Source of the DNA: Dysidea avara
Lineage: Eukaryota; Porifera; Demospongiae; Dictyoceratida; Dysideidae
Reading direction: 5' to 3'
Assembly: GCF_963678975.1 (NCBI RefSeq)
Contig: NC_089276.1
Span: 19,163,272-19,227,271 of the forward strand
DNA length: 64,000 nt
A program made the position numbers and the translations under genes. A model generated the notes under the pieces. The model worked only from the letters and a program-made list of their open reading frames with translations. It made no database searches and was not told where the DNA came from. Shown piece after piece: positions 4,595-57,839 of this stretch; the stretch's first letter is position 1, and every line of letters starts with the position of its first letter.

Positions 4595-4914
4595 ATTTTT
4601 TTGTATTCTTCATGCTTTAATTACATCATGTTTCTGACTCCTGGTATTTACACTAGCCATTAGGGAGAGCACTTTAGCACTCCGTGCAACTTGTGAGCTA
4701 ATGACATCACATAATTCTAATTTATGTGATACATTATAGTTAAGGTAATTATAGGGACCTGCAACTTAGTTGGTGATAATGAAAAGAGAAAGAGAAGAAG
4801 TGGCTCAAGGAGGAAAAAAAATACATCAAGTTACAATTTCAGTGCATCACTTTTATGTCCCTTCTAGCTGAAATTAATGGTGGGTATACATAAGCAATGT
4901 TTTACAAACATTTT

Positions 4915-5640
4915 TATCAAACGGTACAGTCGTACTGTTTAAGTAGGGATTGTGGTGAATGTTTCGCGCGCCACCCAAAATTCCGCCTCTAAAAATCATC
5001 CTGCAGACATTTTACGTGGCGAAAATCATCTTTACGGAATAGTACTAGTCCATATAATACGTAAACAGCATTAAATACTTGCAACAAAGTACTTACAGGT
5101 GGCTGGATATAAAATTTTTAAAAATCGTCAAAACTCCAATTTTAGTCTCACTGCCTCACTCACTACCTCACTCACTGCCTGACCACAGTCGCAAGCCTAG
5201 AGCCCAAACTAAGCAGCGCACGGTCACCATTTTACACCACAACAACAAACTCACCGGTGGGATGTGCCTTTTGGGGTTCCGACGAGTGTATGCCCTGTGC
5301 ACCTTGTATTTTCTTTTATCTTCAATCAGGTAAGTCGTTTTCTTCTTCAAGCATTGAAACTATACCGAGGTGTTAATTTTCCGTATCAACACTTTTTTTG
5401 TAGACACCACAAAATTATTTCAGAAGGCGCTTATGCTGCTGAAAGAGCGGGGCACTTATAATTTCAAGTGTTGCACGAGAAACATTAGTTGTCACTTTGA
5501 CTTTTGCCAATGTCTGGACTGCAATTGACGAAGAGACTTGAGAAGGACTAATACTCGACGGCTTGTTCCTCTGAACACACTGACTCAGCCACTGAGTGCC
5601 GGACGGCGAGATCAGCGAGTGATTCATGTGATTCGATAGT
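4915..5640 (+). repeat. Dispersed repeat K1, copy 1, with internal degenerate microsatellite
   Basis: The segment shares ordered blocks with 58570-59160 (same orientation), 26930-27440 (reverse) and more distantly 57840-58290. The blocks are a GTAGGGAT start, an ACTTACAGGTGG block, a run of CTCACTGCC-type units (5145-5185), then GCAGCGCACGG, a CACCATTTTA block and GGTGGGATGTGCCTTTTGGG. The open frames inside have no recognisable domains and vary between copies, so they are not annotated as genes. Confidence 0.65.
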
Positions 5641-5890
5641 GCTTTGTATTACTTCATCCTGTTAGTCGAGACTAAGCTCCAGACAACTGAAAGGGCCTGT
5701 TCATTCGAACAACTTCCGGCCAGGGTGAATAGAATGGGGACTATCGTACTGAGAATGCAGGTCATAGATCTGAGCGTCACTGCTACTACGATCAAAGGTA
5801 AGCTATGTACACTACTACAGGCTCCAATTTTGGCACAGTACTTTAATAAGCTGTAACTAGCTAGCTGTGCTACAACAAAAAACTAAACAA

Positions 5891-6160
5891 ACTAGTATTT
5901 TAAAAATTGTTAATTTAGAAATGAAGTAGGGATCCATGCAATAAAAAGTAGTGAAACAAGAGATGAATGATGGTATTACAGCATAGCTCGATGGGAAAGT
6001 CCCTACTTTGGCACATTAGCTATAATTTTGCTCAATGCCAAAGTAGGAACTTTTCCATCGATCTATGCTGTAATACCATCATTCCTCTCTTGTTTCACTA
6101 CTTTTTATTGCATAGATCCCTATTTCATTTTTTAAACTAACAATTTTTAAAAATACTAGT
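5891..6160. mobile_element. MITE family A, copy 1
   Basis: A near-complete palindrome of about 270 bp. The left arm runs from ACTAGTATTTTAAAAATTGT through GAAGTAGGGATC, a TGAAACAAGAGATGAATGATG block and TACAGCATAGCTCGATGG. The right arm is the reverse complement, with a short spacer near 6015-6030. There is no coding capacity. Other copies lie at 26292-26566, 59405-59650 and 59738-59980. Confidence 0.75.
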
Positions 6161-6188
6161 GTTACAACTCTGTAATGCTAGAGTGACC

Positions 6189-7468: not shown

Positions 7469-7560
7469 GCAACTGACTCGCTCTCTTCTTTGACCGAAAA
7501 AGTGACTCGTTTGTTGGTTTAACCTATGGTTTAACTCGATTCAACTCCAGTGACGAGGAA

Positions 7561-8537
7561 GTGATAAGTTTTATTGCTGTTGCCATGCCAGTAATTAGAG
7601 GAATCAGGCGCGACCGCGAGCACTACTTGACTTCACCTGAAACCACACCAATCAACGATTGTGATACTTGTATTACTTGTGATAGACCAATTGTCAATGA
7701 CTATCTAGAGTGTGTGTGGTGTGAAAGGTATCAGCACCGAAGTTGTGCAAGGATAAGTGTTGACCTTTGCGACCTTCCCAAAAACATTGTATTTTTCTGT
7801 TGTGAGTGTATCAATAAACTTCCTACTGCTCTTATCACCTATGACAAAACTAAAGAAACTTGTACTACTATTGAAAACAAATTAAAATCAGTACAGGATA
7901 CTTTGTCCAACAGGTTTGATAGTTTAGCTGAGACAATAAATGACCTGTCCTACCAATTAAACTGCCATGATGTAGAAGATTTGGATAATGTCTCTACAGT
8001 AAGTAGTCAGCCACCCAAACAAGAGCTCTCTACTCGACTCTCCAGCAAACATCCCTTATCTGTCAAATCTATTGCTTCGATGACTGCTGACATCATATTG
8101 GAAGAAAAAGAAAAGGAAAAGAGGAGACAAAACCTGATTGTACATAATGTTCCCGAATCAAACTTAACAGAAGCACATGCCAGAAAAAAGAAGACATCCA
8201 GAATCTAACCACTTTATTCAACCAGAATATTGGTGTATCAGCTTCTATCACTAATGCTATACGTATTGGAAAACAAGGTAATAAACCCAAGGTATCACTC
8301 TCTTCTAGAGAAGAAACACTCACCATCCTTCGTAGTCGATGGAACCTGAGAAGCAAAGAGCACCCATCACACGTCACCAAAACTTTCATCACACCTGACT
8401 TGACTTCACTAGAACAACAAAAGAGCAAACAACTTCGTGCAGAACTAGCTAATCTTAACAAGGAAGGAAAACGTTATAGAATCAAGCATGGTAAGATAAT
8501 TCTGAGGGAAGCAGCTACTTTCCAAAGCAACAAGTAA
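7561..8537 (+). pseudogene. LINE ORF1-type protein with PHD-like zinc finger and coiled coil (frameshifted)
   Basis: The N-terminal half holds a Cys/His cluster at residues 36-83: C-x2-C, then C-x2-C, H-x2-C, and C-x2-C. This is a PHD-like zinc finger (CDTCITC, CVWCERYQHRSC, CCEC). A helical, coiled-coil-like stretch follows at about 95-135. RRQNLIVHNVPES begins the RRM-like ORF1 core seen in CR1/L2/L1-type retrotransposons. The frame breaks near 8185. It continues one base out of register from GAAGACATCCAGAATC with a typical ORF1 tail (TNAIRIGK, SREETLTILR, LRAELANLNKEGKRY) to a stop at 8535-8537, giving about 325 residues in total. Such proteins bind RNA and chaperone LINE particles. No endonuclease or reverse transcriptase follows, so this is a 5' fragment or a solitary ORF1. 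Upstream starts are uncertain; a second Met lies at residue 9. Confidence 0.7.
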
Positions 8538-11879: not shown

Positions 11880-12170
11880 ACCTTTTTTTTTTGCCCCCCA
11901 GTGACTGCTCTATTAGAGTATCTCGATCCCGCGATTTTACACTTGCTCGGTTTTGCTTTATAACTTTGTAGCTGTAAGTCTGTTGCTGTTCTAACCACCA
12001 AAAGGCACTCCTACGATGATCAGCCTATGTACACAGGAATTTTCAAGGTCTTCCTCTACTCGGTTTAGTTTACCCTGTAGCCGTGACAAAAGTTTCATCT
12101 TTTTTACGTGAATAAGCGCTCATAACTCCTTGGATATTTATCAGATTCATAGCAAACTTGGAACGCGAAT
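11880..12170 (+). repeat. Dispersed repeat R, left half (split by the foldback element)
   Basis: The segment starts with the GACTGCTCTATTAGAGTATC motif and continues through TTTACCCTGTAG, GTGAATAAGCGCTCATAACT and CAAACTTGGAACGCGAAT. The continuation of the same repeat starts at 19288. Related copies at 47300-48145 and 24400-25285 show the two halves contiguous. Confidence 0.65.
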
Positions 12171-12285
12171 GACATACCATTAGGGAGAGGAAGTTTCCAT
12201 AACACGGAGTTAGGATATTACTGTGTACTACTGTACTCTAAATGATGCACATTTTCAGTAGCCTTACACAGTTAGGCGGTTAACT

Positions 12286-15200
12286 CATTGGAGTGATCTG
12301 AGTGATTGGAGTGATCTGAGTGATTGGAGTGATCTGAGTGATTGGAGTGATCTGAGTGATTGCAGTGATTTGAGTGATCTGAGTGATTGGAGTGATCTGA
12401 GTGATTGGAATGATCTGAGTGATTGGAGTGATCTGAGTGTTTGCAGTGATCTAAGTGATTGGAGTGATCTGAGTGATTGGAGTGATCTGAGTGATTGCAG
12501 TGATCTGAGTGATTGCAGTGATCTGAGTGATTGGAGTGATCTGAGTGATTGGAGTGATCTGAGTGATTGAATGATCTGAGTGATTGGAGTGATCTGAGTG
12601 ATCTAAGTGATTGCAGTGATCTGAGTGATCTGAGTGATTGGAGTGATCTGAGTGATTGGAGTGATCTGAGTGATTGGAGTGATCTGAGTGATTGCAGTGA
12701 TCTGAGTGATTGCAGTGATCTGAGTGATTGGAGTGATCTGAGTGATTGGAGTGATCTGAGTGATTGCAGTGATCTGAGTGATTGGAGTGATCTGAGTGTT
12801 TGCAGTGATCTGAGTGATTGGAGTGATCTGAGTGATTGGAGTGATCTGAGTGATTGCAGTGATCTGAGTGATTGGAGTGATCTGAGTGTTTGCAGTGATC
12901 TGAGTGATTGGAGTGATCTGAGTGATTGGAGTGATCTGAGTGATTGCAGTGATCTGAGTGATCGGAGTGATCTGAGTGATTGGAATGATCTGAGTGATTG
13001 GAGTGATCTGAGTGATTGGAGTGATCTAAGTGATTGGAGTGATCTGAGTGATTGGAGTGATCTGAGTGATTGGAGTGATCTGAGTGATTGGAGTGATCTG
13101 AGTGATTGGAGTGATCTGAGTGATTGCAGTGATCTGAGTGATTGGAGTGATCTGAGTGTTTGCAGTGATCTGAGTGATTGGAGTGATCTGAGTGATTGGA
13201 GTGATCTGAGTGTTTGCAGTGATCTGAGTGATTGGAGTGATCTGAGTGATTGGAGTGATCTGAGTGATCTGAGTGATTGGAATGATCTGAGTGATTGGAG
13301 TGATCTGAGTGATTGGAGTGATCTAAGTGATTGGAGTGATCTGAGTGATTGCAGTGATCTGAGTGATTGGAGTGATCTGAGTGATTGCAGTGATCTGAGT
13401 GATTGGAGTGATCTGAGTGATTGCAGTGATCTGAGTGATTGGAGTGATCTGAGTGATTGGAGTGATCTGAGTGATTGCAGTGATCTGAGTGATTGGAGTG
13501 ATCTGAGTGATTGGAGTGATCTGAGTGATGGCAGTGATCTGAGTGATCTGAGTGATTGCAGTGATCTGAGTGATTGGAGTGATCTGAGTGATTGGAGTGA
13601 TCTGAGTGTTTGCAGTGATCTGAGTGATTGGAGTGATCTGAGTGATTGCAGTGATCTGAGTGATTGGAGTGATCTGAGTGATTGCAGTGATCTGAGTGAT
13701 TGCAGTGATCTGAGTGATCGGATTGATTGGAGTGATCTGAGTGATTGGAGTGATCTTAGTGATGGCAGTGATCTGAGTGATCTGAGTGGTTGGAGTGATC
13801 TGAGTGATTGCAGTGATCTGAGTGATTGGAGTGATTGGAGTGATCTGAGTGATTGGAGTGATCTGAGTGTTTGCAGTGATCTGAGTGATTGGAGTGATCT
13901 GAGTGATTGCAGTGATCTGAGTGATTGCAGTGATCTGAGTGATTGGAGTGATCTGAGTGATTGGAGTGATCTGAGTGATTGGAGTGATCTGAGTGATTGG
14001 AATGATCTGAGTGATTGGAGTGATCTAAGTGATTGGAGTGATCTGAGTGTTTGCAGTGATCTGAGTGATTGGAGTGATCTGAGTGATTGGAGTGATCTGA
14101 GTGATTGCAGTGATCTGAGTGATCGGAGTGATTGGAATGATCTGAGTGATTGGAGTGATCTGAGTGATTGGAGTGATCTAAGTGATTGGAGTGATCTGAG
14201 TGATTGCAGTGATCTGAGTGATTGGAGTGATCTGAGTGATTGCAGTGATCTGAGTGATTGGAGTGATCTGAGTGATTGCAGTGATCTGAGTGATTGGAGT
14301 GATCTGAGTGATTGGAGTGATCTGAGTGATTGCAGTGATCTGAGTGATTGGAGTGATCTGAGTGATCTGAGTGATTGGAGTGATCTGAGTGATGGCAGTG
14401 ATCTGAGTGATCTGAGTGATCTGAGTGATTGCAGTGATCTGAGTGATTGGAGTGATCTGAGTGATTGGAGTGATCTGAGTGTTTGCAGTGATCTGAGTGA
14501 TTGGAGTGATCTGAGTGATTGCAGTGATCTGAGTGATTGCAGTGATCTGAGTGATTGGAGTGATCTGAGTGATTGCAGTGATCTGAGTGATTGGAGTGAT
14601 CTGAGTGATCGGATTGATTGGGTGATTGGAGTGATCTGAGTGATGGCAGTGATCTGAGTGATCTGAGTGATTGGAGTGATCTGAGTGATTGCAGTGATCT
14701 GAGTGATTGGAGTGATTGGAGTGATCTGAGTGATTGGAGTGATCTGAGTGTTTGCAGTGATCTGAGTGATTGGAGTGATCTGAGTGATTGCAGTGATCTG
14801 AGTGATTGCAGTGATCTGAGTGATTGGAGTGATCTGAGTGATCTGAGTGATCTGAGTGATTGGAGTGATCTGAGTGATTGGAGTGATCTGAGTGATTGGA
14901 ATGATCTGAGTGATTGGAGTGATCTAAGTGATTGCAGTGATCTGAGTGATCTGAGTGATTGGAGTGATTGGAGTGATCTGAGTGATTGCAGTGATCTGAG
15001 TGATTGAAGTGATCTGAGTGATTGGAGTGATCTGAGTGATTGCAGTGATCTGAGTGATTGGCGTGATTGGAGTGATCTGAGTGATTGCAGTGATCTGAGT
15101 GATTGGAGTGATCTGAGTGATCTGAGTGATTGCAGTGATCTGAGTGATTGGAGTGATCTGAGTGATTGGAGTGATCTGAGTGATTGGAGTGATCTGAGTG

Positions 15201-18200
15201 ATTGCAGTGATCTGAGTGATTGGAGTGATTGGAGTGATCTGAGTGATTGGAGTGATCTGAGTGATCGGAGTGATCTGAGTGATCAGAGTGATTGGAGTGA
15301 TCTGAGTGATGGCAGTGATCTGAGTGATCTGAGTGACCTGAGTGAATGGAGTGATCTGAGTGATTGGAGTGATCTGAGTGATTGCAGTGATCTGAGTGAT
15401 TGGAGTGATTGGAGTGATCTGAGTGATTGGAGTGATCTGAGTGATTGGAGTGATCTGAGTGATCTGAGTGATTGGAGTGATCTGAGTGATTGGAGTGATC
15501 TGATTGATTGCAGTGATCTGAGTGATCTGAGTGATCTGAGTGATTGGAGTGATCTGAGTGATTGCAGTGATCTGAGTGATTGGAGTGATCTGAGTGATTG
15601 GACTGATCTGAGTGATTGCAGTGATCTGAGTGATTGGAGTGATCTGAGTGATTGCAGTGATCTGAGTGATTGGAGTGATTGCAGTGATCTGAGTGATTGG
15701 AGTGATCTGAGTGATTGGAGTGATCTGAGTGATTGCAGTGATCTGAGTGATTGGAGTGATCTGAGTGATTGCAGTGATCTGGGTGATCTCAGTGATTGGG
15801 TGATCTGAATGATTGGAGTGATCTGAGTGATTGCAGTGATCTGAGCGATTGGAGTGATCTGAGTGATTGGAGTGATTGGAGTGATCTGAGTGATTGCAGT
15901 GATCTGAGCGATTGGAGTGATCTGAGTGATTGGAGTGATTGGAGTGATCTGAGTGATTGGAGTGATCTGAGTGATTGCAGTAATCTGAGTGATTGGAGTG
16001 ATCTGATTGATTGGAGTGATCTGAGTGATCTGAGTGATTAGAGTGATCTGAGTGATCTGAGTGATTGGAGTGATCTGAGTGTTCGGAGTGATTGGAGTGA
16101 TCTGAGTGTTTGCAGTGATCTGAGTGATTGGAGTGATCTGAGTGATTGGAGTGATCTGAGTGATTGCAGTGATCTGAGTGATCGGAGTGATCTGAGTGAT
16201 TGGAATGATCTGAGTGATTGGAGTGATCTGAGTGATTGGAGTGATCTAAGTGATTGGAGTGATCTGAGTGATCTGAGTGATTGGAGTGATCTGAGTGATT
16301 GGAGTGATCTGAGTGATTGGAGTGATCTGAGTGATTGCAGTGATCTGAGTGATTGGAGTGATCTGAGTGTTTGCAGTGATCTGAGTGATTGGAGTGATCT
16401 GAGTGATTGCAGTGATCTGAGTGATTGGAGTGATCTGAGTGTTTGCAGTGATCTGAGTGATTGGAGTGATCTGAGTGATTGGAGTGATCTGAGTGATTGC
16501 AGTGATCTGAGTGATCGGAGTGATCTGAGTGATTGGAATGATCTGAGTGATTGGAGTGATCTGAGTGATTGGAGTGATCTAAGTGATTGGAGTGATCTGA
16601 GTGATTGCAGTGATCTGAGTGATTGGAGTGATCTGAGTGATTGCAGTGATCTGAGTGATTGGAGTGATCTGAGTGATTGCAGTGATCTGAGTGATTGGAG
16701 TGATCTGAGTGATTGGAGTGATCTGAGTGATTGCAGTGATCTGAGTGATTGGAGTGATCTGAGTGATCTGAGTGATTGGAGTGATCTGAGTGATGGCAGT
16801 GATCTGAGTGATCTGAGTGATTGCAGTGATCTGAGTGATTGGAGTGATCTGAGTGATTGGAGTGATCTGAGTGTTTGCAGTGATCTGAGTGATTGGAGTG
16901 ATCTGAGTGATTGGAGTGATCTGAGTGATTGCAGTGATCTGAGTGATTGGAGTGATCTGAGTGATTGCAGTGATCTGAGTGATTGGAGTGATCTGAGTGA
17001 TCGGATTGATTGGAGTGATCTGAGTGATTGGAGTGATCTGAGTGATGGCAGTGATCTGAGTGATCTGAGTGATTGGAGTGATCTGAGTGATTGCAGTGAT
17101 CTGAGTGATTGGAGTGATTGGAGTGATCTGAGTGATTGGAGTGATCTGAGTGTTTGCAGTGATCTGAGTGATTGGAGTGATCTGAGTGATTGCAGTGATC
17201 TGAGTGATTGCAGTGATCTGAGTGATTGGAGTGATCTGAGTGATCTGAGTGATTGGAGTGATCTGAGTGATTGGAATGATCTGAGTGATTGGAGTGATTG
17301 GAGTGATCTAAGTGATTGCAGTGATCTGAGTGATCTGAGTGATTGGAGTGATCTGAGTGATTGCAGTGATCTGAGTGATTGAAGTGATCTGAGTGATTGG
17401 AGTGATCTGAGTGATTGCAGTGATCTGAGTGATTGGCGTGATTGGAGTGATCTGAGTGATTGGAGTGATCTGAGTGATTGGAGTGATTGGAGTGATCTGA
17501 GTGATTGCAGTGATCTGAGTGATTGGAGTGATCTGAGTGATTGGAGTGATCTGAGTGATTGGAGTGATCTGAGTGATTGGAGTGATTGGAGTGATCTGAG
17601 TGATCGGAGTGATCTGAGTGATCGGAGTGATCTGAGTGATTGGAGTGATCTGAGTGATGGCAGTGATCTGAGTGATCTGAGTGACCTGAGTGAATGGAGT
17701 GATCTGAGTGATTGCAGTAATCTGAGTGATTGGAGTGATCTGAGTGATTGGAGTGATCTGAGTGATTGGAGTGATCTGATTGATTGCAGTGATCTGAGTG
17801 ATCTGAGTGATCTGAGTGATTGGAGTGATCTGAGTGATTGCAGTGATCTGAGTGATTGGAGTGATCTGAGTGATTGGACTGATCTGAGTGATTGCAGTGA
17901 TCTGAGTGATTGGAGTGATCTGAGTGATTGCAGTGATCTGAGTGATTGGAGTGATTGCAGTGATCTGAGTGATTGGAGTGATTGGAGTGATTGGAGTGAT
18001 CTGAGTGATTGCAGTGATCTGAGTGATTGGAGTGATCTGAGTGATTGCAGTGATCTGGGTGATCTCAGTGATTGGGTGATCTGAATGATTGGAGTGATCT
18101 GAGTGATTGCAGTGATCTGAGCGATTGGAGTGATCTGAGTGATTGGAGTGATTGGAGTGATCTGAGTGATTGGAGTGATCTGAGTGATTGCAGTAATCTG

Positions 18201-18325
18201 AGTGATTGGAGTGATCTGATTGATTGGAGTGATCTGAGTGATTAGAGTGATCTGAGTGATCTGAGTGATTGGAGTGATCTGAGTGTTCGGAGTGATTGGA
18301 GTGATGGGAGTGATCTGAGTGATCT
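12286..18325 (+). repeat. Tandem 18-bp (2 x 9-bp) array, long arm
   Basis: About 335 copies of GAGTGATCTGAGTGATTG. Variants include TTGC, TTTGC, GATGGC and GATCGG forms, and 9-bp single units occasionally break the 18-bp register. One forward frame stays open because the period is a multiple of three (repeated Ser-Asp-Leu-Ser-Asp-Trp/Cys), so long open frames such as 12567-14639 are by-products and not genes. Rare variants recur in order about 2.3 kb apart, showing internal large-scale duplication. Confidence 0.9.
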
Positions 18326-18326
18326 C

Positions 18327-19166
18327 AGATCACTCAGATTACTCTAATCACTCCACTCACTCCAATCACTCAGATCATTCAGATCACTGCAATCACTCAG
18401 ACCACTCAGATCACTCCAATCAGTCAGATCACTCCAATCACTCAGATCACTCAGATCACTACAATCACTCAGATCACTCCAATCACTCAGATCACTCGAT
18501 CCAATCACCCAGATCACTCCAATCACTCCGATCACTCAGATCACTGCAATCACTCAGATCACTCCAATCACTCAGATTACTGCAATCACTCAGATTCACT
18601 CCAATCACTCCAATCACTCAGATCACTCAGATCACTCCAATCACTCATCACTCAGATTACTGCAATCACTCAGATCACTCCAATCACTCCCATCACTCAG
18701 ATCACTCCAATCACTCAGATCACTCCAATCACTCCAATCACTCAGATCACTCCAATCACTCAGATTACTGCAATCACTCAGATCACTCCAATCACTCAGA
18801 TCACTCCAAATCACTCAGATCACTCCAATCACTCAGATCACTCCAATCACTCAGATCAATCAGATCACTCCAATCACTCAGATTACTGCAATCACTCAGA
18901 TCACTCCAATCACTCAGATCACTCCAATCACTCAGATCACTCCAATCACTCAGATCACTCCAATCACTCAGATCACTCCAATCACTCAGATTACTGTAAT
19001 TACTCAGATCACTCCAATCACTCAGATCACTCCAATCACTCAGATCACTCCAATCACTCAGATCACTCCAATCACTCAGATCACTCCAATCACTCAGATC
19101 ACTCCAATCACTCAGATCACTCCAATCACTCAGATCACTCCAATCACTCAGATCACTCCAATCACT
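18327..19166 (-). repeat. Tandem 18-bp array, short inverted arm
   Basis: The same unit in reverse complement (CAATCACTCAGATCACTC), about 46 copies. It joins the long arm at a perfect local palindrome, AGTGATCT-C-AGATCACT, centred on 18326. It is about one seventh the length of the long arm and more uniform over its last 200 bp. Open frames here (such as 18319-18999) are artefacts of the repeat. Confidence 0.9.
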
Positions 19167-19287
19167 CCAATGAGTTAACCGCCTAACTGTGTAATGCTAC
19201 TGAAAATGTGCATCATTTAGAGTACAGTAGTACACAGTAATATCCTAACTCCGTGTTATGGAAACTTCCTCTCCCTAATGGTATGTC

Positions 19288-19640
19288 GCGAATGTACCCT
19301 TATACGTTCTTTACATGTGCCAAATATCGATACAATGGAGTTACAAGTTTGTGTTTTATAGCAATTTTTGCGAAAAGGAAACCAAAGAACTTAAATGAAA
19401 CTTTGGCCACTCATATCTCAGAAATGGCTAGGGAGATTTCCTTCAAATTTGGTATGTGGCGTGGCCTACCTGGCGGGCACCTCTGTAGTGAAACTAGTTC
19501 CAATCGGATAAGGGATCTTGGAGCTACAAAGGTGTGAAAGTCGCATTTTCTTTCTTATACTCACGGTGTGGCGCGCCGGCTTCTTGGGCCGCACGACACA
19601 CTACCGTGTGTCTTGGTTTCACTTTATATTTCTGTATTAA
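19288..19640 (+). repeat. Dispersed repeat R, right half
   Basis: This continues the repeat cut by the foldback element: GTACCC, a GTGCCAAATATCGATACAAT block, GTGTTTTATAGCAATTTTTG, a CATATCTCAGAAATGGCTAG block and GTGTGAAAGTCGCATTTTCT. It ends in ACTCACGGTGTGGCGC and CGCACGACACACTACCG. The copies at 24400-25285, 47300-48145 and 48930-49330 have the same order. Confidence 0.65.
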
Positions 19641-24399: not shown

Positions 24400-25285
24400 T
24401 TGGTTTTTGCATTGTAATTCCATAACTGTTACCTTTTCATTTTTCTAACCCAATTCTATGATGGCTAGCCTATGTACATAACCAAATTTCAAGTCATTCC
24501 CATAAGCGGTTTACCCAGTAGAAGTTTGATCTTCTTTACGTGAAGAAATGTTCATACCACAATGGACACTTACCAGATTCTTTGCAAACTTAGTACATGA
24601 ATTCACCTTTACATGCCCTTCAAACTTCAAGGTAATCAAATTATGCATTTACATGTTATAGCCGGTTTTGTAAAGGCTACTTCAACTAAATCTTTTATTT
24701 CTCAGGCCAAACTCAGCCAAGTACAGGGTTGGTAGGTGGATAAAAATCCAAAATAAAAATTTTAATTTAATTTGCTAGCAGAAGAGTGAAAGTCAAACAG
24801 TAGGCCAAGCTATAATATTTCATGATTGCTGCACCACTAGACAGTTGCCTGTTATGGTAAAATATTAAGTGTTCTTACTTTGTGATAAGCTTAAAAGGTG
24901 ACTTGCAATCCCTTTATGGCATTAATTCTACTTGCATGGTGATCACGTGTAAAAAAAATGTAAATATTTTGCACTGATATTTTTCTTCAGAATTACATCA
25001 GACAATTAATTAACATAGAGTTGGTCAGGTCCGAGAAGCAAAAAAAAAAAGTTGAAGTGGTCAAAGTGTGCAAAAAGAATTCCTGTAAACCATTTAAGAA
25101 GAAAAAATGAAGAAAACAATCAAACCTTTGGCTGCTCATATATCATGAATGGCAAGAACAAATTTAATCACATTAGCTGTGCCACCTGGAAGATAGCTAT
25201 AATGTACTTTGGAGAAGGGACCATGGAGTCATGCAGGTGTGAAAATCGCATTATCTTTCTTCCTGTCACTGTACACACAGTGTAA
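24400..25285 (+). repeat. Dispersed repeat R, copy 2
   Basis: Ordered blocks match the copy split around the foldback element: a TTTACCCAGTAG block, CTTTACGTGAAGAAATGTTC, then CAAACTTAGTACATGAATT with TTACATGCCCTTC, a long A/T-rich middle, and TGCAGGTGTGAAAATCGCAT with TCTTCCTGTCACTGTACAC at the end. The 77-residue open frame 25052-25285 falls inside the repeat and differs in other copies. Confidence 0.6.
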
Positions 25286-26291
25286 CCATAGATAATAGAG
25301 TACATAAATGGGATGGGAAATGCAGTAACATGACATTACTAAATATGTACATTTCTATTGGGATTCTGTGTATTACATCACAAACATACTCCTTATGCTT
25401 GCTGCACTTGTACTGAAGAGAAACAAACCATTGTAATGACAGAATTTTGAGTCCAATGACTGTGAAACTTTGCTACAATGAACTCAAATAAGCAATTGAG
25501 GGAATTGGATGGTACCAACTCTCAAGGAAGTTATACACAAAATAAAATGAGAGTGAAAAGTGAAAAACGGTTCTAAAAGTACCCATAACTTTCTTTGCAA
25601 ATATAGTCTATACTATTAACTGTGATAAGCCTTTTCCTTACCATTTAATAGTGAGAACCAGAGAGAGAATATCAAAACAAAACAGGAACAGTTGCTCAAA
25701 GAAATGGCAAATATCTTTCATTTTAGCAAAAGTTTAAAATCACTAGCAGTACAACACAAGGGTAAAAGACTGTGTTGGTGACACGCCTAGCTTACCACAA
25801 GACTTAAAAAGTGGAAGAAGCAGGAAGCAGTGTATAACGGCAAGAAGTGTGGATGAAGCAGTGCAAGAGGCAATGTGGATGAGGCATGAAGGTACTATGA
25901 GTAAAGGTATAACAGCGTGCAATAGCCACAGTTAATGCGATACGCTTTGTTTCAAAATCTACAGTTTGAAATCTCCTGGCAATATCTCTCACAAAGGCCT
26001 ATACATGCTGTAGTCTGTTTGGAATACTATTTGGCTGCTTAGAACACTAATTCCCCTACTTGAGCACAAAGCTGTCTTGTCTTATAAGATACGCATAACA
26101 AAAATCAAACCGGAAATCGCTTGCGTTTCCTATCCCTTTTATGTACTCTAGGTGTAACGCACCAGCTTTCTTGGCAGTATGACACACTACCGATACATAG
26201 ATTGTAGCTCTACCCTGTACATAGATGATTTAGTAGTATCACATAGAAGAGCCTGCAGCACAAATTACAACTGCTTAATTAATTAAACAAA
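25286..26291. other. Intergenic DNA with a repeat-R 3' fragment
   Basis: No gene was recognised. Around 26150-26200, GTGTAACGCACCAGC and TGACACACTACCGATAC match the terminal block of dispersed repeat R. The rest has no recognised content. Confidence 0.35.
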
Positions 26292-26566
26292 TACTAGTAT
26301 TTTAAAAATTGTCAATTTAAAAATGAAGTAGGGATCTATGTAATAAAAAGTAGTGAAACAAGAGATGAATGATGGTATTGCAGCATAGCTTGGTGGGAAG
26401 TCCCCACTTTGGCATTGAGCAAAATAGTTGTTATAGCTAATGTGCCAAAGTAGGGATTTTCGCACCGAGCTATGCTGTAACACCGTCATTCATCTCTTGT
26501 TTCACTATTTCTTATTGCATAGGTCCCTACTTCATTTTTAAATTAACAATTTTTAAAATACTAGTT
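26292..26566. mobile_element. MITE family A, copy 2
   Basis: A palindrome with ends ACTAGTATTTTAAAAATTGT and its complement, inner GAAGTAGGGATC, GTGAAACAAGAGATGAATGA and GCAGCATAGCTTGGTGGG. The right flank, TTTGTTGTAGCACAGCTAG, is complementary to the left flank of copy 1 (near 5862), so the original element may be longer than the palindrome core. Confidence 0.7.
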
Positions 26567-26599
26567 TGTTTAGTTTTTTTTGTTGTAGCACAGCTAGAT

Positions 26600-26700
26600 A
26601 CAGTGTAACTTGTGACTGTTCTATTAGAATATCATACACGACTGTTGTATTAGAGTGACTGTTGTATTAGAGTAACTCAAGTCAGCCAAGTGGTGTGCAG
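26600..26700 (+). repeat. Cluster of GACTGTTCTATTAGA motifs
   Basis: Three tandem degenerate copies (about 26612, 26640 and 26660) of the short motif found dispersed through the window. Confidence 0.5.
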
Positions 26701-26929
26701 CTAGCTAGACCAATAAGGGGTGAGGTCATATTGTTTACTGTTAAGCAGTTAGATAGATAGATTGTTAAGAGGTGTGGTCTCCATACTCTATTGCTATTAG
26801 TCTACCTAGATCTTTATTTTGGGTGTGGTCACGAACCTATTGTAAATGGGATCCCAATCGTGAAGTTGCAGATATATACCTTTATAGTAGCACCAGGGCT
26901 GAAGTGTTTCTGAAATCCAGCTCTGAATT

Positions 26930-27440
26930 AATTCTGTGGTGTCTAAATATGCAACTGAAAGAAAGTGTTGATATGGAAAATTAATGCCTCTATATGGTAT
27001 CATTGGATGAAGGAGAAGACAAGCAACCTGATTGAAGATAAAAGAAATGACAAAGCGCAGAAGGCCTACACTCATCGGAATCCCAAAAATGCACGTCCCA
27101 CTGGTGAGTTTGTTATTGTGGCGTAAAATGGTGGCCATGCGCTGCTTTGTTTGGCCATTAGCCTTGCAACTGTGGTCAGTCAGTCAGTCAGTCAGTCAGT
27201 CAGTCAGTCAGTCAGTCAGTCAGTCAGTCAGGCAGTCAATCTAAAATTCAAGTTTTGGCAATTTTTAAAATTCTATATCTGGCCACCTGTAAGTGTTTTG
27301 TTACAATTAATGCTGTATTATATATTATATGAACTAGTACTATTCCACAAAGGTGATTTTTGTCTCATAAGATGTCTCTAGGATGATTTACAAAGGTGGA
27401 ATTTTGGGCAGCGCATGAAATTTTCAGGGGATCCCTACTT
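26930..27440 (-). repeat. Dispersed repeat K1, copy 2 (reverse) with GTCA microsatellite
   Basis: Read on the minus strand this matches 58570-59160 and 4915-5640 block by block. The internal microsatellite is expanded here to about 13 GTCA units (27176-27230). The K1 end blocks GTACCATTTG and GGGATCCC lie near 27430-27460. The Ser-Gln-Ser-Val-rich open frames are read-through of the microsatellite. Confidence 0.7.
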
Positions 27441-27479
27441 ATACGGTACCATTGTACCATTTGATATGAAATGTGCACT

Positions 27480-31230: not shown

Positions 31231-31528
31231 TTGGAATTAAAGAACATGGCTGACGATATTCCTACCACTGTAGTTATGTGCCATTGCTACAAATACTGTC
31301 ATAGAACGGTAGTTTTTTATTCAGTGTACATGTGTACTTCATATGAAAATTGTTTTACCCCTGTACATAAAACATTTTGCAAAAAACAAAGTGAAGTATA
31401 GTAGGGTAACTGTGTGTAAACAGCGAAGTGGCTTTCTTTTAGTAACAGCCACAACTTTTGTATAACTAATAGCCGGTTTAGTGTGAGTGTGTATGTGTTA
31501 TATTGTTGTATTTTAACGGACTTCTCAC

Positions 31529-31795
31529 CATATACTACTAAATTGGCTGCTAATGTTGATGTAGCTACATCTCCATACTCATTAGTAACACTACACTCAT
31601 AGTCTCCACTATCATTCTCCATCACGTTAGTGATCATCAGAGTGTCTCCAGTCTCTCCAGTAATGTTTGTTCCATTGTGTCTCCACTGGTACATGAAGTT
31701 CTCTACTCCCACACCACTCACTGTAGTAGTGAAGACAGCAGTGTGTGTCACCTCTACACTCTGATTGGATGGCGTCACTGTCACCTCTGGTAGAC
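31529..31795 (-). CDS. Ig-like domain exon (symmetric phase 1)
   Basis: The 267-bp exon encodes an Ig domain: LPEVTVTPSNQSVEV, FTTTVSG where the first Cys would normally be (Thr here), YQWRHNGTNI with the core Trp, then GDTLMITNVMENDSGDYECSVTNEYG with the second Cys. Loss of the first canonical Cys means no standard intradomain disulphide. Acceptor GGTACAG/GT and donor TATATG/GTGAGA are phase 1. It lies 56 bp from the next Ig exon upstream, a very short intron. Several NxT and NxS sites fit a secreted or surface protein. Confidence 0.85.
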
Positions 31796-31851
31796 CTGTA
31801 CCACCGATACAACATCCACACTACCATCTAACAGTATGCCAAAATACTTAC

Positions 31852-32118
31852 CGCAGACTGTTAGTTGAGTAGCATTTGATGAAACACTCCCTCCTTCATT
31901 ACTTACCACACAAGTGTATGTGTTATCATCAGATGATCTCACTTCTGGGATCACCAGGGTATTGGTGTTTGTACTAGTCACTTTACTAGGAAATGATCCT
32001 GATCTAATTGTCCACTGATATTTGACATTATAACCAGTAGCAGAACATGTGAATGTGGCAGTTTGAGTGAGATTCTCTCCTTGTAGTCTTGGATGCATTA
32101 CTATTTCAGGCATTGGAA
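31852..32118 (-). CDS. Ig-like domain exon (symmetric phase 1)
   Basis: The 267-bp exon has the same length as its neighbour at 31529. PEIVMHPRLQGENLTQTATF leads to FTCSATGYN (first Cys), YQWTI (Trp), LVIPEVRSSDDNTYTCVVSN (second Cys) and EGGSVSS. Acceptor ACATAG/TT and donor CTGCG/GTAAGT on the minus strand are phase 1. It is a clean I-set-type domain with both Cys and Trp present. Pairing with 31529-31795 across a 56-bp intron gives the firmest evidence that several Ig exons are spliced into one transcript. Confidence 0.85.
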
Positions 32119-32707
32119 CTATGTAAGAGAGAATACACATATAATATCATAGCAACACATGAACATTTGATTTTCTGTGTGAAAAGCCTTTCCAAAATCT
32201 CATGAATTTACAGTCAGGTGACTAGTTGTGTCACCATGGAATAGTTTAAGATAAACAGGTTTCAAATAGTTGCCTCATTCACAAATCCAGTGTTATGAAA
32301 ATGGTGCAGGTCACATAATTATTATAGTATAAGAATGGCTTTCGCTGAGCAAGTTGTACAGCCCTTTAGTACTATCAAAAAACATGCTATTAAAAATGAT
32401 GTCTTTGTATAGAATACTTCAATGGTCAATGGAGTGTGTTGTCTGCACCCAGAGCCTTTAAATACGAAGGGAAAAAGTTGATCACAAATAAATGGTAAAA
32501 GACTTTAGCATGTAAAGCTTGTTGTGAAATGTTTCGACTGATTTGTAATATTTGACCATTCTATTGAGTATATAAAAATCTGTCTCTTTTTGTGCACTCC
32601 TAGGAATAATGCAGTTCATGAAGTGGGGCTAAGCCCCTATAGCAAACAAAGGATTTTGTTTATGTGTTGTCAACCTTACACTACCAGACAATACAGTAAT
32701 TTCATAC
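32119..32707. other. Presumed intron
   Basis: It lies between two Ig exons of the same strand. No shared repeat is evident apart from a degenerate GACCATTCTATTGAGTATA motif near 32554. Confidence 0.4.
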
Positions 32708-33028
32708 CTGTTACAATTAGCCTGAAACTACTTATGTCATTTCCAGCAGCATTCATGGCCATGCAGCTGTATGTAACACTATGAAATGGCAAAGTGCTTC
32801 TAATGTATAGTCTACTGGATGACACACAGGCATTTCCAGGAGCACAATCTTGAGTTCCTTTTTGAAAAGATGTGATTATAGTATTGGAGTTATTCCTAAC
32901 AGCTTCATTATTTAGAATCCAATGTATTGTTGGGAGAGGATATCCCTTTGCATTACATGTAACAGTAACTGCACTGAAAACACTCACAGTTTCGTTTGGA
33001 GGATTAATGTTAGTAATAACCGCAGGAA
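32708..33028 (-). CDS. Ig-like domain exon (symmetric phase 1, with insertion)
   Basis: The 321-bp exon encodes PAVITNINPPNETVSVFSAV, VTCNAKGYP (first Cys), IHWILNN (Trp) and VTYSCMAMNAAG (second Cys). A loop with two extra cysteines (QDCAPGNACVSS) sits between the C and E strands and may form its own disulphide. Acceptor TCTGTAG/TT and donor AACAG/GTATGA are phase 1. The exon is 54 bp longer than the two neighbours because of the loop. MITE D copy 4 begins about 30 bp upstream of the acceptor. Confidence 0.8.
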
Positions 33029-33059
33029 CTACAGAAATGATTCATGATAATGATAATCT

Positions 33060-36560: not shown

Positions 36561-36721
36561 AGATCCACACTTTGACTGAGAACTACAGTATAAAGTTCCA
36601 TGTTTACTAAGTACCTGAAGGTTTCAAAGCAACACATATAGCATTGATAAAAGCACTGATTGACAATAACCAACATTTTTAGGATAGTACCATTACAGGT
36701 AACGATGACAGTTACCTCCTC

Positions 36722-37130
36722 CCTATTGCAGTAACAACCTCAAAATGATTCCCTATGTAGTATTATGTACATGGATTTACCATATACATCCTCGGGAATT
36801 GTCCGGTTAACACTGCCAGGAAACATGGCTAGCCAAAACTCACCAGCCTTGAAGGAATAAATTACCGTTTGAAGTAAATGGGCCAGTATACCTATTTCAA
36901 AATCAGTACCCCATGTTCCATTATTGGCCATTCCAGTTTGTTCAAGGTAGCTGTCAACAGTAGTATAGCCACCATTATAGGATTCCAAGTAGTTTTGATG
37001 GCCATTGGCTCCAATGCAGCTCAGATATTGACAACATGTGAGCTGTAATGGCACTTCGTATTTCAAAGTGTTGATTTTCTCACCCAGTGATAATGTAGGA
37101 CATGGTTCTAAACAGGCAATTTCCATCACC
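36722..37130 (-). pseudogene. Second OTU-domain copy, broken
   Basis: Reading the minus strand gives the same order as the OTU domain at 38216-38686: IGANGHQNYLESYNGGYTTV, LEQTGM, WGTDFEIGILAHLLQTVIYS, FPGSVNRTIPEDV. Two frameshifts break it. The Cys-loop half reads out of frame (VMEIACLEPC is the shifted form of GDGNCLFRA). The catalytic His segment reads out of frame after SMYII (GNHFEVV is in another frame). It is a segmental duplication of the Helitron's 3' end and cannot give an active protease. Confidence 0.75.
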
Positions 37131-37134
37131 TTAT

Positions 37135-37515
37135 TCTGTAGGGGACATCGCTGTGTGTACAAGAACTCACAAATCACAACACACACCACTTGACATGTGA
37201 TGGGATGGACTGCACAACACCTGTATGCATGAACAATACAATGAAGTGAAGTTAGTTGTAATGGTTACAAACCAGTTCTTACCAGTTTCCCTCTATTCTG
37301 AAGGGGACATCGCTGTGTGTACAAGAACTCACAAATCACAGTATCACTAAGCACACGCCACTTGACATGTGAAGGGATGGAATGCACAACACCTGTATGC
37401 ATGAACAATACAATGAAGTTAGTTGTAATGGACACAAACCAGTTCTTACCAGTTTCCCCTCTATTCTGAAGGGGACATCGCTGTGTGTACAAGAACTCAC
37501 AAATTACAGTACCAG
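37135..37515 (+). repeat. ~165-bp tandem repeat, about 2.3 copies
   Basis: GGGGACATCGCTGTGTGTAC recurs at 37141, 37303 and 37471 (spacings 162 and 168 bp), with the blocks CACTTGACATGTGA, GGATGGAATGCACAACACC and CAGTTCTTACCAGTTTCCC in the same order. The minus-strand open frame 37265-37492 lies within it and is not a gene. Confidence 0.8.
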
Positions 37516-37836
37516 TGTTATATGCTTAAGAAATTTAATACATGTCAGCAGTGATGATGTAATCAGTTAGTGCACTCCCACCACACTCCCGCATTTCAGC
37601 ACACACAAATACTGCGCACTAACTGATCACAAAATAGCTCCATCATTGACTCACAAGTAATTTTCTGTACTTCCAAAGGAGGCGACATATAAGTCTCAGA
37701 ACAAACCATAGACCTCAATGTACACACTAATGGAAGGAAGGACAGCACAGGGACACTTGAGTCCACAAGTGTCACCCATTACTTGTATTGCAGAAGTCAA
37801 GCTAGTCATGTTTAGAAAGACTAACAGGGTCACTAT
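37516..37836. other. Spacer between tandem repeats
   Basis: No gene was recognised. GTTAGTGCACTCCCACCACA near 37566 resembles GTTAGTGTACTTCCACCATA near 36152, so this spacer and the one before the 40-bp repeat may be related. Confidence 0.35.
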
Positions 37837-38120
37837 GTGGTTTAAGTACTCATAGTTTGGCCACACGCCTACCACTGCCTGAGTACCCAAGACTGCCGAC
37901 AGACCAGTTTTTGTGTGGTTTAAGTACTCAGTTTGGCCACATGCCTACCACTGCCTGAGTACCCCAGACTGTCAACAGACCTGTTTTTGTATGGTTTAAG
38001 TACTCACAGTTTGGCCACACACGTACCACTGCCTGAGTACCCCAGACTGCTGACAGACCAGTTTTTGTGTGGTTTAAGTACTCAGTTTGGCTACATGTCT
38101 ACCACTGCCTGAGTACCACA
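37837..38120 (+). repeat. ~77-bp tandem repeat, about 3.7 copies
   Basis: GTGGTTTAAGTACTCA starts at 37837, 37915, 37991 and 38069 (spacings 78, 76, 78). Each copy contains CTACCACTGCCTGAGTACC and GACAGACCAGTTTTTGT. Confidence 0.85.
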
Positions 38121-38215
38121 GACCCCAGTTTAGCAAAAGCATTAAACAATGACAGAGTATATGTGATGGAGCTATTATACACTGCATACAATGTAAGCAC
38201 TGCAATACAACCATA

Positions 38216-38686
38216 CTACCTCCTCCATATAGCAGTGACCACTTCAAAGTGGTTTCCTGTATAATAAATATACATGGACTTGCCATTCACATCCTCTGGA
38301 ATTGTCCGGTCAATACTGCCAGGAAACACTGCCAGCCAATACTCACCAGCTTTGAACGAATAAACCACTGTTTGTAGTAAATGGGCCAGTATAGCCATTT
38401 CAAAATCAGTACCCCATGTTCCACTACGGGCCATTCCAGTTTGTTCAAGGTAGTTGTGAACACTTGTATAGCCGCCATTGTATGATTCCAAGTAGTTTCG
38501 ATGGCCATCAGCTCCAATGCCATTCAATAGCTCAGGTATTGACAACATGTGGGCTATAATGGCACTTCGTATTTCAAAGTGTTGATTTTCTGACCCAGTG
38601 ATGATGTAGGACATGGCTCTAAACAGGCAATTTCCATCACCTGATATGCGCTTGAGAGAACGCAGATCAGGCCGAGTTAATATCAC
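38216..38686 (-). pseudogene. OTU cysteine protease domain at the Helitron 3' end
   Basis: An OTU-family domain. The Cys loop GDGNCLFRA lies at residues 16-24 (Asp17, nucleophile Cys20), RSAIIAHML follows, and the catalytic His is in GNHFEVVTA (His146 of 156). OTU domains cleave ubiquitin-like linkages; Helitrons of animals and plants can carry one of uncertain role. This copy keeps the visible catalytic residues, so the domain itself could fold. It is out of frame with the helicase and separated by about 200 bp containing stops (or a missed intron), so production as a fusion is doubtful. A broken duplicate lies at 36722-37130. Confidence 0.75.
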
Positions 38687-38887
38687 ATCAGAACCACTAT
38701 CTTGTCGTCGAAATGGACCAACAAAACTGTATCCCAGTTGTGTACATTTCTGCCTCTACCAGTCTACATCCACAGGGTAATACCTGTAGTCTCTCCACTC
38801 AGTTCAGTTCTCGGTGCTGTTGGCCTTTCAACAGCAGTGATTTCACAGTCACCACTTGCTGATCTTGAGCCTGTAGATGGTGCTCTA

Positions 38888-39551
38888 TCACTTTTCTATT
38901 TTTTTACTATCACCGCAAGCTCCATCACTTGCAGACATTGTCCTCTTTTTTGATGTAGATTTGTGTACAGTTTTCTTTGCAGGTGGTTCCAACTCACTGG
39001 AGCCATCTAGCAGTGTTCTTTTCACTGGTGCTCTCTTCTGTTTGACAGCTTCGTAGAGAGGAAGGTCCTTTCTGAAGCTGCTTTGCAGTCGATTGGCCTC
39101 TTCAAGGGATTTGTTACACACCTTAATTGAAGATGGATCAAAGGAAGTGAGATACAATCCACTTAATGATCGCACCCGTGAGACAGCCACATAAGCCATA
39201 CCAGCACAGAAGACTTTGTCAGATAAGTCAATTATGGCACAATCCAGTGAAAGTCCTTGGCACTTGTGAATGGTAACAGCATAAGCTACTGTTAAGGGAA
39301 ACTGTTTCCTATACACATAAGTTTTTCATTAGCAGGAATTTACTTTTAACCCTTTCAACAGGATAGGGCACCTCAAAATGGTCAAATTTCACCATCACTG
39401 TATGGGCTGAAATCGCTGCAACCGTACCCAAAGCTCCATTGACCAATCCCTGCTTTGTATCGATGTTTCTCCTAAGCATCACTCGTGCTCCCATGGCAAT
39501 AAACAACTCTGCTTCCAAACCTGCTGTCTGGTTGCAGTCCTTGTTGAGCAT
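38888..39551 (-). pseudogene. Helitron helicase, C-terminal part (two frame segments)
   Basis: Segment one (39309-39551) gives GLEAELFIAMGARVMLRRN and GLVNGALGTV. Segment two (38888-39316) gives YAVTIHKCQGLSLDCAIIDL and AYVAVSRVRSLSGL, the last superfamily-1 helicase motifs of Pif1-type enzymes. The segments are joined by one-base frameshifts, at about 39552 in an A-run and at about 39312. A Lys/Ser-rich tail (PAKKTVHKSTSKKR) ends at 38888. It would be the C-terminal half of the replicative helicase that unwinds DNA during rolling-circle transposition. Confidence 0.85.
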
Positions 39552-41575
39552 TTTAAGTTTTTAGCTGCAGTTTTATCCCACTTACGGGTGGTGACAGTTT
39601 CGTCAATCTCATCGACACATGTCAGCTTATACAATTTGGCGTCCAGGGTGTTAAGCATGTCGTGGTTGAAATCACTACAAGCCTTTCTTGTTGGAAACAG
39701 GCAAACAGGCGAATTGTATGTCTTGCACAATTCCTTGAACTTCTGCACAGTTGTTTCATGTATAACTCTTTCAGCAAGACACTTTGTGGTTTCCTCAGAA
39801 ATGTATCCACGACGAATTTCGTCTAGCACTTCAATGTACTTGCTATCTTTCTTTTGGCGTTCATTCACTGTAAGCTCATCATAGATGATTGTGTCTTTCC
39901 AGATGTTTACAGCAGTCATACAGCCTAGTCTGCTGACCACAAGCTTATTGCTCAACTTTGAGAACACTGGATCACCTGTAACAGGTGGGAGCTGCAAGAT
40001 GTCACCTACAAACAGCATATTCACCCCACCAAACCAATCCGTACCACCAAATATTTCCTGCAGCCTCAAATGAATATATGCTAAGTTAAGGCTGGACAAC
40101 ATGGAGACCTCATCAATGATGACCAACTTCAGAGCGCACAGCTTGGTGCGCATGATCTTCTGTGCATCTTTTGACAGTGACCAATAGCCAGCAGTCTTGC
40201 CTTCATGTTCAATAGGTAGCTGAAACAGTCTGTGGACAGTCACACCACAAACATTATGAGCAGCCAATCCAGTTGGAGCCGCTACAGTACATACAGTCCC
40301 ACTTTCAACATCTTTCCACATATCCTTAACTTGACTTCTAATAGTTTCAATCAAGAAGGATTTTCCAGTACCTCCAACTCCACTGACAAACATATGCAAA
40401 GGTTTGTATTCTTTACAGCCACACTTTCCTGTGTCATGCTCATGTTGGTGGTTGAGATGGTCGGTGATCTTGTCAAAGACACGTCGTTGGTCTGCATTGA
40501 GCATGTCAACACGCTGGTCCAAATCCAAAGAATCTAGTGCGTTATCTTCCATGTCGTGCACATCTTGCATAGCTGCTTCAGCTTCACCGATCAACTTTAC
40601 ACCTTCTTCCTCTTCCCTCTTATCTTCATCAGGGACTTCCTCGCCATCTTCCTTCTTTCTGGCTTCATCAATTTCTTTCATCTTAGATTGCGCTTGCAGC
40701 ATACGTTGAAGGCTCTCGTGGTGATCCTTCAAGCTGTCACAATCCTCCAGAAACTCACTGAAAGCCTCTTCTGCTGTCTTGCCTTCACCTACCAAATCTG
40801 ACTCCTCAGTAAATGGCACAAACAGCAACAACAAGGAGTAGTAGTAGTCTTCACGTTGCTCTGGTTTGTTAGGATCAAATATTTTGTGATTGACAATTTT
40901 TGGTTTTAGCAGCTTTCTGTACTGCCTGTTGCCAGAGGCATCAGTGCCACTTTTCACATACCACTTGACAAAATCAAACAAGCAAACATCCTTCAACTCT
41001 TCAGGCCTTTTGGGATAGAAATCATCTAGCAGGCTTTCTTCATACAGGTCATCACTATCTGGATTGAGTTCTGCCATTTCTTTAAGCTCCTTATGTTTGC
41101 GCACTCTCCTCTTCCTCTTGTGAGGCATATCGGCGGCAACAAACTGAACTGTTTCTGATTTTCCACACAGATGGTCACCAGTAAGCAAATATGATGCTTC
41201 ATAAAGGCCACATTCACGAGAGCGGAGAGACTTTACTCCAAAGCTAAATAACCTTTTGTACAGAGACTCTCCGTCAGGGATTTCTGACCACAACTCCTGC
41301 ATATGGCTCTTCTCTGCCTTCGTGATGTACCCAGTAACATACTGAGCTAGAGCCAAAGAAGATTCTGAAATAAACTGGATGTCAATGTTTGCCTTCCACA
41401 ACAACAAAAGAATGGGATTGTAATCATTCACCCTTATTTCATTTTCGGATCGTGGAAGTGCATATATTTTGCTCTTGGATTTCAAGCTGTCATGCACTGG
41501 CTTCAATTCTCCTTCTTTGCTCACTTCACGAGGGAAGCTAAACCTACATTTTGTTATGTAAGTTGTTCCATACTT
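39552..41575 (-). pseudogene. Helitron Rep Y2 motif and Pif1-type helicase core
   Basis: Counted from 41524, residues 61-69 hold QYVTGYITK, the two catalytic tyrosines (Tyr62, Tyr66) and Lys of the Helitron Rep nuclease. They would attach the nuclease to DNA ends. An acidic linker follows. Then come the Pif1 helicase motifs: LNADQRRVFD, FVSGVGGTGKSFL (Walker A, near 40357-40389), AAPTGLAAHNV, LVIIDEVSMLS (Walker B, near 40096-40128) and FVGDILQLPPV. The frame is open for 681 codons, long for a decaying copy. It is separated from the HUH segment by one nonsense codon (TGA where Trp is expected) at 41576-41578; translation beyond it is in frame (KYGTTYITKCRFSFPREV). The end is frameshifted at about 39552. 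Confidence 0.9.
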
Positions 41576-44344: not shown

Positions 44345-44410
44345 CTATAGCAACAGAAAGAAGTGACGAGAAAATAAAATTAATTAAGGAATTAAGTGAA
44401 ACAACATTAC
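44345..44410 (-). other. 66-bp intron in the Helitron gene
   Basis: Minus-strand donor CACAG/GTAATG and acceptor GCTATAG/GTACTT. Splitting an Arg codon (AG/G) gives a continuous frame. The size matches the introns of the RGG gene nearby. Confidence 0.65.
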
Positions 44411-54436: not shown

Positions 54437-54675
54437 CTATTGTAAGTATGCAAATGTTGTAAATGGAAACTTATACTTCTCATTATTTACTATGGTGAAA
54501 TGATGTATAAACATACAGTTGGCTATATCTGTGCTTACATGCTTTGCACAAAGTTTTATTAATTGTGAAGATTTATCATTAATGTGCAAATGGTGAACCT
54601 GAGGTCCAAAAAAACTTGGATATACGTACTACTTGAAAGAACAATCAGTAATACGTATGATTTATATTATTTATA
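54437..54675. other. Presumed intron or upstream flank
   Basis: No exon or repeat was recognised. Confidence 0.3.
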
Positions 54676-57835: not shown

Positions 57836-57839
57836 TAAC

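Follow-up and report, generated by a model that had tools for sequence, protein, structure and literature searches.

How an array of a very short tandem repeat comes to lie between the inverted ends of a transposon is the question raised by this stretch of DNA from the sponge Dysidea avara. The window, that is, the whole 64-kb stretch analysed, contains a foldback element of 7115 bp (12172-19286), formed by two terminal inverted repeats (TIRs) around one satellite array in two orientations (Table 1). In our proposal, the element is very probably a non-autonomous DNA transposon that moves by cut and paste, has a foldback architecture with arms growing by in-register duplication, and has inserted in a dispersed repeat.

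Table 1. Coordinates of the foldback element, its arms, its block duplications, and its target repeat in the window.
Feature	Position	Strand	Description
Left TIR	12172-12290	+	119 bp, begins ACATACCATTAGGGAGAGG; 118/119 identical to right TIR
Right TIR	19168-19286	-	119 bp
Left direct repeat copy (target-site duplication)	12164-12171	+	8 bp, CGCGAATG
Right direct repeat copy	19287-19294	+	8 bp, CGCGAATG
Long arm	12291-18325	+	6035 bp, 9/18-bp satellite, consensus GAGTGATCTGAGTGATTG
Short arm	18326-19167	-	842 bp, same satellite as long arm, reversed
Arm junction palindrome	18313-18339	.	13-bp perfect arms around base 18326
First copy, 0.86-kb block	13218-14065	+	aligns with 14073-15000; 6 mismatches/838 aligned bases; 5/6 gaps multiples of 9
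First copy, larger block (offset ~2.4 kb)	14109-16146	+	aligns with 16510-18323; 13 mismatches/1804 aligned bases; 10/11 gaps multiples of 9
Second copy, larger block	16510-18323	+	extends to arm junction; first copy instead continues into forward array
Target dispersed repeat, left part	11901-12171	+	aligns with 47344-47511 and 47542-47876
Interrupted target repeat, right part	19295-19556	+	aligns with 47542-47876 (across junction) and 47915-48092
Uninterrupted target repeat copy (empty-site paralogue 1)	47657-47876	+	70.7% over 225 columns or 72% over 227; gaps elsewhere, none at junction
Uninterrupted target repeat copy (empty-site paralogue 2)	24522-24620	+	73.7%, 99 ungapped columns across junction

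An earlier note on this DNA described inverted repeats of about 120 bp differing at one position, and this description is borne out: the sole mismatch between the 119-bp TIRs is at TIR position 92 (C/A). The TIRs are flush with a direct repeat, and the longest exact direct repeat there is 8 bp. Thus, the duplication that the note placed outside the ends exists, but its length is 8 bp instead of 6-7 bp. The shorter reading arises because the 8-mer starts with C and ends with G, a complementary pair that makes the inverted repeat longer by one. We prefer a direct repeat of 8 bp over one of 6 bp, since a single chance base match (1 in 4) suffices for the former, while the latter requires two flanking matches (1 in 16); the joined empty site is the identical string under both. 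With both strands searched, CGCGAATG occurs exactly twice in the window, in the two copies flanking the element.

The flanks separate an insertion from an inverted duplication. Both flanks, reaching out to about 11901 on the left and about 19556 on the right, are parts of one dispersed repeat. The flanks were joined minus the element and one 8-bp copy, and the joined sequence was aligned to other copies of the repeat in the window. Two diverged copies align without a gap at the junction, and both have a single 8-base segment at the junction position. Therefore, the element is an insertion. Long inverted repeats can also form by template switching during replication or repair, so that an inverted segmental duplication or a hairpin-repair product would yield inverted arms with no transposition. 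Such an origin is extremely improbable here, as the direct repeat directly adjoins the TIRs and two paralogues of the target repeat run through that point unbroken. The proposal that satellite and transposon are joined in one object is well supported by the same two observations, in the form of a transposon-like insertion with satellite arms.

A second satellite region lies at 45744-47359, where 31/61-bp units are followed by 17-bp units, AGGGTGACTGCTCTATT. It abuts a copy (47344-48092) of the dispersed repeat hosting the foldback element. This repeat family may itself carry tandem arrays.

The interior of the element is array only. There is no unique sequence between the arms, and the arrays meet near 18325/18326, a border good to a base or two (TRF begins the reversed array at 18324). 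The claim that the interior is nothing but repeat units, 6.0 kb forward and 0.84 kb reversed, holds, though the units vary. Relative to the 18-bp consensus, the long arm has 337 substitutions and 148 deleted positions, and the short arm has 60 substitutions, 24 deleted positions, and 1 insertion. From each TIR, the array reads inward in the same sense, and so it belongs to the inverted repeat. In a search of both strands for the 18-bp unit with up to three mismatches, 415 sites were found in the array, and the window beyond the element has none; at four mismatches, one rotation gives 3 sites outside. This confinement of the satellite to the element within the window is counted in favor of the transposon proposal.

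The two arms share some unit variants and differ in others. The doubly changed unit CAGTAATCT is common to both, being found in 3 places in the long arm and 5 in the short one, which suggests descent from one array. The variant unit CAGTGATCT accounts for 97 of 668 long-arm segments versus 2 of 88 in the short arm. We read these unit sequences as a sign that both arms are of common descent and have probably undergone separate turnover since. Derivation of the satellite from the TIR is not supported, the best 9-, 18-, and 27-base matches between TIR and unit being reached in 78%, 52%, and 69% of 300 shuffles. The array has open frames of up to 1046 aa, in several frames and on both strands. They are uninformative, because a stop-free 9-base unit yields them, and they are not taken as evidence for a gene.

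The perfect palindrome reported at the arm junction is real. It is short (13-bp arms) and not special, because, when inverted joins of the long-arm array were simulated 4000 times, 11.4% gave a palindrome equally long or longer. The 201 junction bases fold as a long single-stranded DNA hairpin, with an energy of -81.3 kcal/mol versus a shuffle mean of -32.1 (z -15.5); we expect that any inverted join of the satellite array would be predicted to fold likewise. The earlier reader feared that the inverted arm was a fold-over artefact of assembly. A fold-over would give mirror identity near 100%, whereas the ungapped identity at the junction starts at 85% for 60 bp and falls to 78% for 200 bp and 54% for 400 bp. 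When gaps are allowed, the two arms, compared as mirror images, differ by 49 substitutions and by 72 gapped bases in 804 aligned bases. In addition, beyond the right TIR comes the right half of the target repeat, which is what a true insertion would show. The fold-over is, thus, disfavored.

Two head-to-tail duplications, one of 2.4 kb and a nested one of 0.86 kb, lie in the long arm, and in both the copies are 99.3% identical. The block alignments were made with cheap gap extension. For 13218-14065 versus 14073-15000, the score is 758, against 289-356 in 10 shuffles of the order of the 18-bp segments; for 14109-16146 versus 16510-18323, it is 1646, against 656-768 in 10 such shuffles. Across these duplications, 15 of 17 gaps are multiples of 9, and the other two are of 10. 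The 0.86-kb block is present in three copies, since 13218-14065 aligns not only with 14073-15000 but also with 16509-17298 (4 mismatches in 763; 3 of 3 gaps multiples of 9). Independently of these alignments, ungapped blocks with at least 148 of 150 bases identical are found at 56 different lags greater than 150 bp, whereas 20 shuffles gave none. A single 3-kb head-to-tail duplication of the long arm was also considered. It is kept as a whole-arm alignment, 12291-15284 versus 15295-18324, in which 2670 bases are aligned with 58 mismatches, 27 gaps (23 of them multiples of 9), and a score of 2151 against 999-1055 in 5 shuffles; the tighter nested blocks supersede it. The duplications account for only part of the 7:1 asymmetry of the arms, because the long arm minus the second copies is still more than 3 kb.

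The block duplications bear on a second form of assembly artefact, in which the long arm has been lengthened by the joining of alleles. Blocks that are 99.3% identical, with gaps in multiples of 9 bp, resemble alleles of a variable-number array, and, as the assembly sequence alone was examined, part of the duplication may come from alleles that the assembly ran together. One block, however, is present in three copies, which is more than two joined alleles alone yield. Moreover, joined alleles would mean a shorter long arm, with the element still there. Taking the fold-over and the joined alleles together, we consider it quite unlikely that an assembly artefact explains the locus.

The inference of a young insertion from near-identical ends is compatible with the TIRs and is weakly supported, since a difference of 1/119 has a 95% interval of 0.02-4.6%, and gene conversion between the ends could also account for their likeness. 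The block duplications have diverged by 0.7% each, about the same as the TIRs (0.8%), and, therefore, they may be no older than the insertion. In the middle of the whole-arm alignment, the divergence (3/1134) is not significantly different from that of the TIRs (p = 0.33). The possibility that the variety of the array is older than the insertion was tested, and the result is not significant: arm-arm substitutions at the TIR-anchored register are 35/788 versus 1/119 for the TIRs (p = 0.07), and the best of 58 arm registers versus the TIRs gives p = 0.16.

It is possible, though we lean against it, that a short inverted-repeat element, consisting of the TIRs and a few units, inserted first and that almost the whole satellite expanded at the site afterward, never having moved as a large array. 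The likeness in divergence of the block duplications (13/1804 and 6/838) and the TIRs (1/119) agrees with such growth. So does the short arm, which has no mutations beside its TIR and more of them toward the junction, as would be seen if new units were born at the TIR: in successive 105-bp steps from TIR to junction, divergence from the consensus is 0, 3.8, 10.5, 2.9, 13.3, 15.2, 16.2, and 19.0% (rank correlation 0.45, p = 0.0016). Growth in place is opposed by the arm-arm difference of ~4-5% substitutions, which would point, short of significance in the comparisons just given, to array variation older than the insertion. It is also opposed by the long arm, which shows no trend of decay from TIR to junction (rho 0.04, p = 0.43). 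That only one of the two arms, the short one, shows a gradient counts against our own proposal, a transposon with arms growing by in-register duplication, as well.

The architecture of the element is that of the foldback elements, as follows. The inverted repeats bear tandem repeats, the arms are unequal (6035 and 842 bp), and a target-site duplication of 8 bp is flush with the ends. The foldback type assigned in the earlier note fits in these respects and departs in one, that a central loop is absent and the arrays meet directly. Drosophila FB arms contain graded short repeats. The TU elements of sea urchin have inverted repeats with an outer domain of ~15-bp tandem repeats, arms of ~0.8 kb, unique inner and middle segments, and 8-bp duplications. 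Elements of the hAT and Merlin superfamilies also leave 8-bp duplications, and, therefore, a duplication of this length is not diagnostic of a Mutator-like element (MULE).

The FB description in PMC4022104 has a central loop of different sequence, and there is none here. In the non-autonomous FB4 elements, the inverted repeats vary in length; their termini are conserved, and the modules inside resemble minisatellites (PMC4022104). The ten FB4 copies analysed in that work are 627-2266 bp with a loop, versus 7115 bp without a loop for the present element. Because the loop is absent, and because the element is known here from one copy in the window, we claim the architecture alone and not membership in the Drosophila FB family.

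Tetris of Drosophila virilis, as described in PMC4079207, is apparently a non-autonomous, foldback-type element with no conserved ORFs. Tandem repeats of ~220 bp lie inside TIRs of up to 1,735 bp, and there are inner and middle domains. Three complete copies have duplications of 8-9 bp, and the length of the array varies by unit duplication; the authors attribute satellite arrays of up to 66 copies to growth within Tetris (PMC4079207). Tetris and the sponge element are alike in the foldback type, the 8 bp duplication, and the arrays within. They are unlike in the 9/18-bp unit, the 6-kb arm, and the lack of a unique interior of the latter, and Tetris is a family with several copies, whereas the Dysidea avara element is one copy in a 64-kb window.

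Three further systems combine inverted ends with internal repeats. Tm1 of root-knot nematodes, described as Foldback-like, has composite TIRs with a varying count of a ~14-bp motif, 9-bp duplications, and one member with a MULE-like transposase (PMC3169594). In the account given there, Tm1 has terminal motifs of 7 bp that are asymmetric and lie beyond its inverted repeat, in contrast to the present element, where the inverted repeat is flush with the direct repeat. Galileo, of the P superfamily, has long, internally repetitive TIRs in which tandem repeats expand and contract (PMC3573991, PMC3688188). It differs in having 7-bp duplications, TIRs of ~0.3-1.2 kb, and a known transposase, versus 8 bp and a 6-kb arm here. 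The Galileo TIR tandem repeats are described as containing extra transposase-binding sites (PMC3688188), and, by analogy, it is possible that the satellite repeats would serve in the same way. Rehavkus, a MULE-like element reported from arthropods and annelids, has TIRs of 26-400 bp, a minisatellite on one side only, before the 3' TIR, a PHD finger transposase, and 9-bp duplications (PMC6446971). In the sponge element, the longest exact direct repeat is 8 bp, and the interior is array only, with no PHD-finger transposase. A non-autonomous Rehavkus derivative is possible. The 8-bp duplication and the 119-bp TIR do lie in the Mutator range given in the same source, duplications of 8-11 bp and TIRs often of hundreds of bases, and are consistent with a candidate MULE affiliation.

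The novelty initially attributed to this object was overstated, as tandem-repeat arms are already on record in foldback elements, and so is the growth of a satellite within such an element (Tetris, PMC4079207). According to a 2007 paper, the longest inverted repeats reported for foldback elements were 1-2 kb (PMC1952172). The two-sided inverted part of the present element, 842 + 119 bp, is within that figure, and the 6-kb single arm is beyond it. The element is, thus, extreme among foldback elements in its 6-kb arm, its asymmetry, its 9-bp unit, and its lack of a unique interior; it is not a new category.

Further copies and a source of transposase were sought. The outer 19 bases of the TIR, with up to three mismatches, are found within the window at the two element ends only. 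A blastn search of the window with the whole TIR returned the two ends and 14 matches of 11-21 bp with E values from 0.24 to 2.9. Exact-pattern scans gave no match in viral_contigs for TIR pieces of 23 and 22 bases or for satellite pieces of 36 and 27 bases and none in genome_contigs for a 44-base TIR piece or a 27-base satellite piece. These collections are viral and prokaryotic, and, therefore, the absence of matches in them is uninformative on the host. Among phages, blastn of the TIR with its flanks, at E up to 10, found two 27-base matches (E 0.1 and 5), which we take as chance.

The element itself is without a recognised gene, and no transposase with these TIRs was seen in the 64-kb window. 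Together with the presence of a single copy there, this weighs against our proposal. The plus-strand open frames at 60992-63441, which we take to resemble a MULE-type transposase, were considered as an autonomous partner. They were not accepted, as there is no foldback TIR match nearby and the domain evidence is a sub-threshold SWIM zinc-finger match only (E = 0.14). None of the 25 inverted-repeat pairs listed for 56500-64000 stood out as the ends of these frames; the window stops at 64000. The window contains no tRNA found by ARAGORN and no Rfam family at the gathering threshold.

Several other features were seen in the window. A Helitron-like element on the minus strand, 36713-44979, has matches to Helitron_like_N (E 1.3e-27), PIF1 helicase (E 3.2e-24), and an OTU-like protease (E 5.3e-7) in neighboring frames. 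A second, weaker OTU-like frame is at 36740-37261 (E 0.0019, below cut-off), and the segment 36713-37134 is duplicated at 38217-38645 with 86% likeness. A dispersed repeat of ~1.2 kb is present in three copies (4908-6163, 26290-27474, and 58569-59649), with pairwise pieces 74-89% alike, and part of it, ~300 bp, is internally palindromic. Open frames at 7477-8537, presumably resembling the first open frame of a non-LTR retrotransposon, have weak zinc-finger matches below cut-off (C1 domain, E 0.0016; PHD, E 2.3). Immunoglobulin-like open frames are found on the minus strand at 31317-33041 and 53080-54470. A Pfam Ig_3 match lies in 31317-31817 (E 3.5e-11), the match at 54096-54467 is below cut-off (E 0.00039), and the remaining frames in these two segments are Immunoglobulin-like by eye. 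Their character suggests receptor-like host genes. The Ig domain and the Helitron with its OTU protease give the window a metazoan look.

Our proposal for the foldback element can be put as a sequence of events. A transposase, presumably supplied in trans from elsewhere, would recognise the 119-bp ends and excise the element. Reinsertion at a staggered cut would generate the 8-bp duplication. The 9/18-bp satellite interior is part of the inverted repeat, and the length of the arms would be altered by the gain and loss of whole 9-bp units and of larger in-register blocks, through unequal exchange or slippage in replication. Of the two arms, only the long one would have been extended, by two nested block duplications, while the short arm remained at 0.84 kb.

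The spread of satellites and their starting points are an old question, and a 2025 review lists array expansion inside transposons among satellite origins (PMC12628747). It is tempting to go further and propose a mobile satellite, in which the array of ~7 kb is the only cargo, moved whole by the 119-bp ends. Units would be born beside the TIR, kilobase blocks would be doubled in the 9-bp register, and transposition would seed satellites genome-wide; we regard this fuller version as improbable. At the level of the locus, an insertion with both ends intact, with paralogues of its target in the window and with satellite alone inside, provides a base-level case for array growth. The unit-sized gaps, the nested block duplications, and the decay of one arm toward the junction are readable inside a single insertion.
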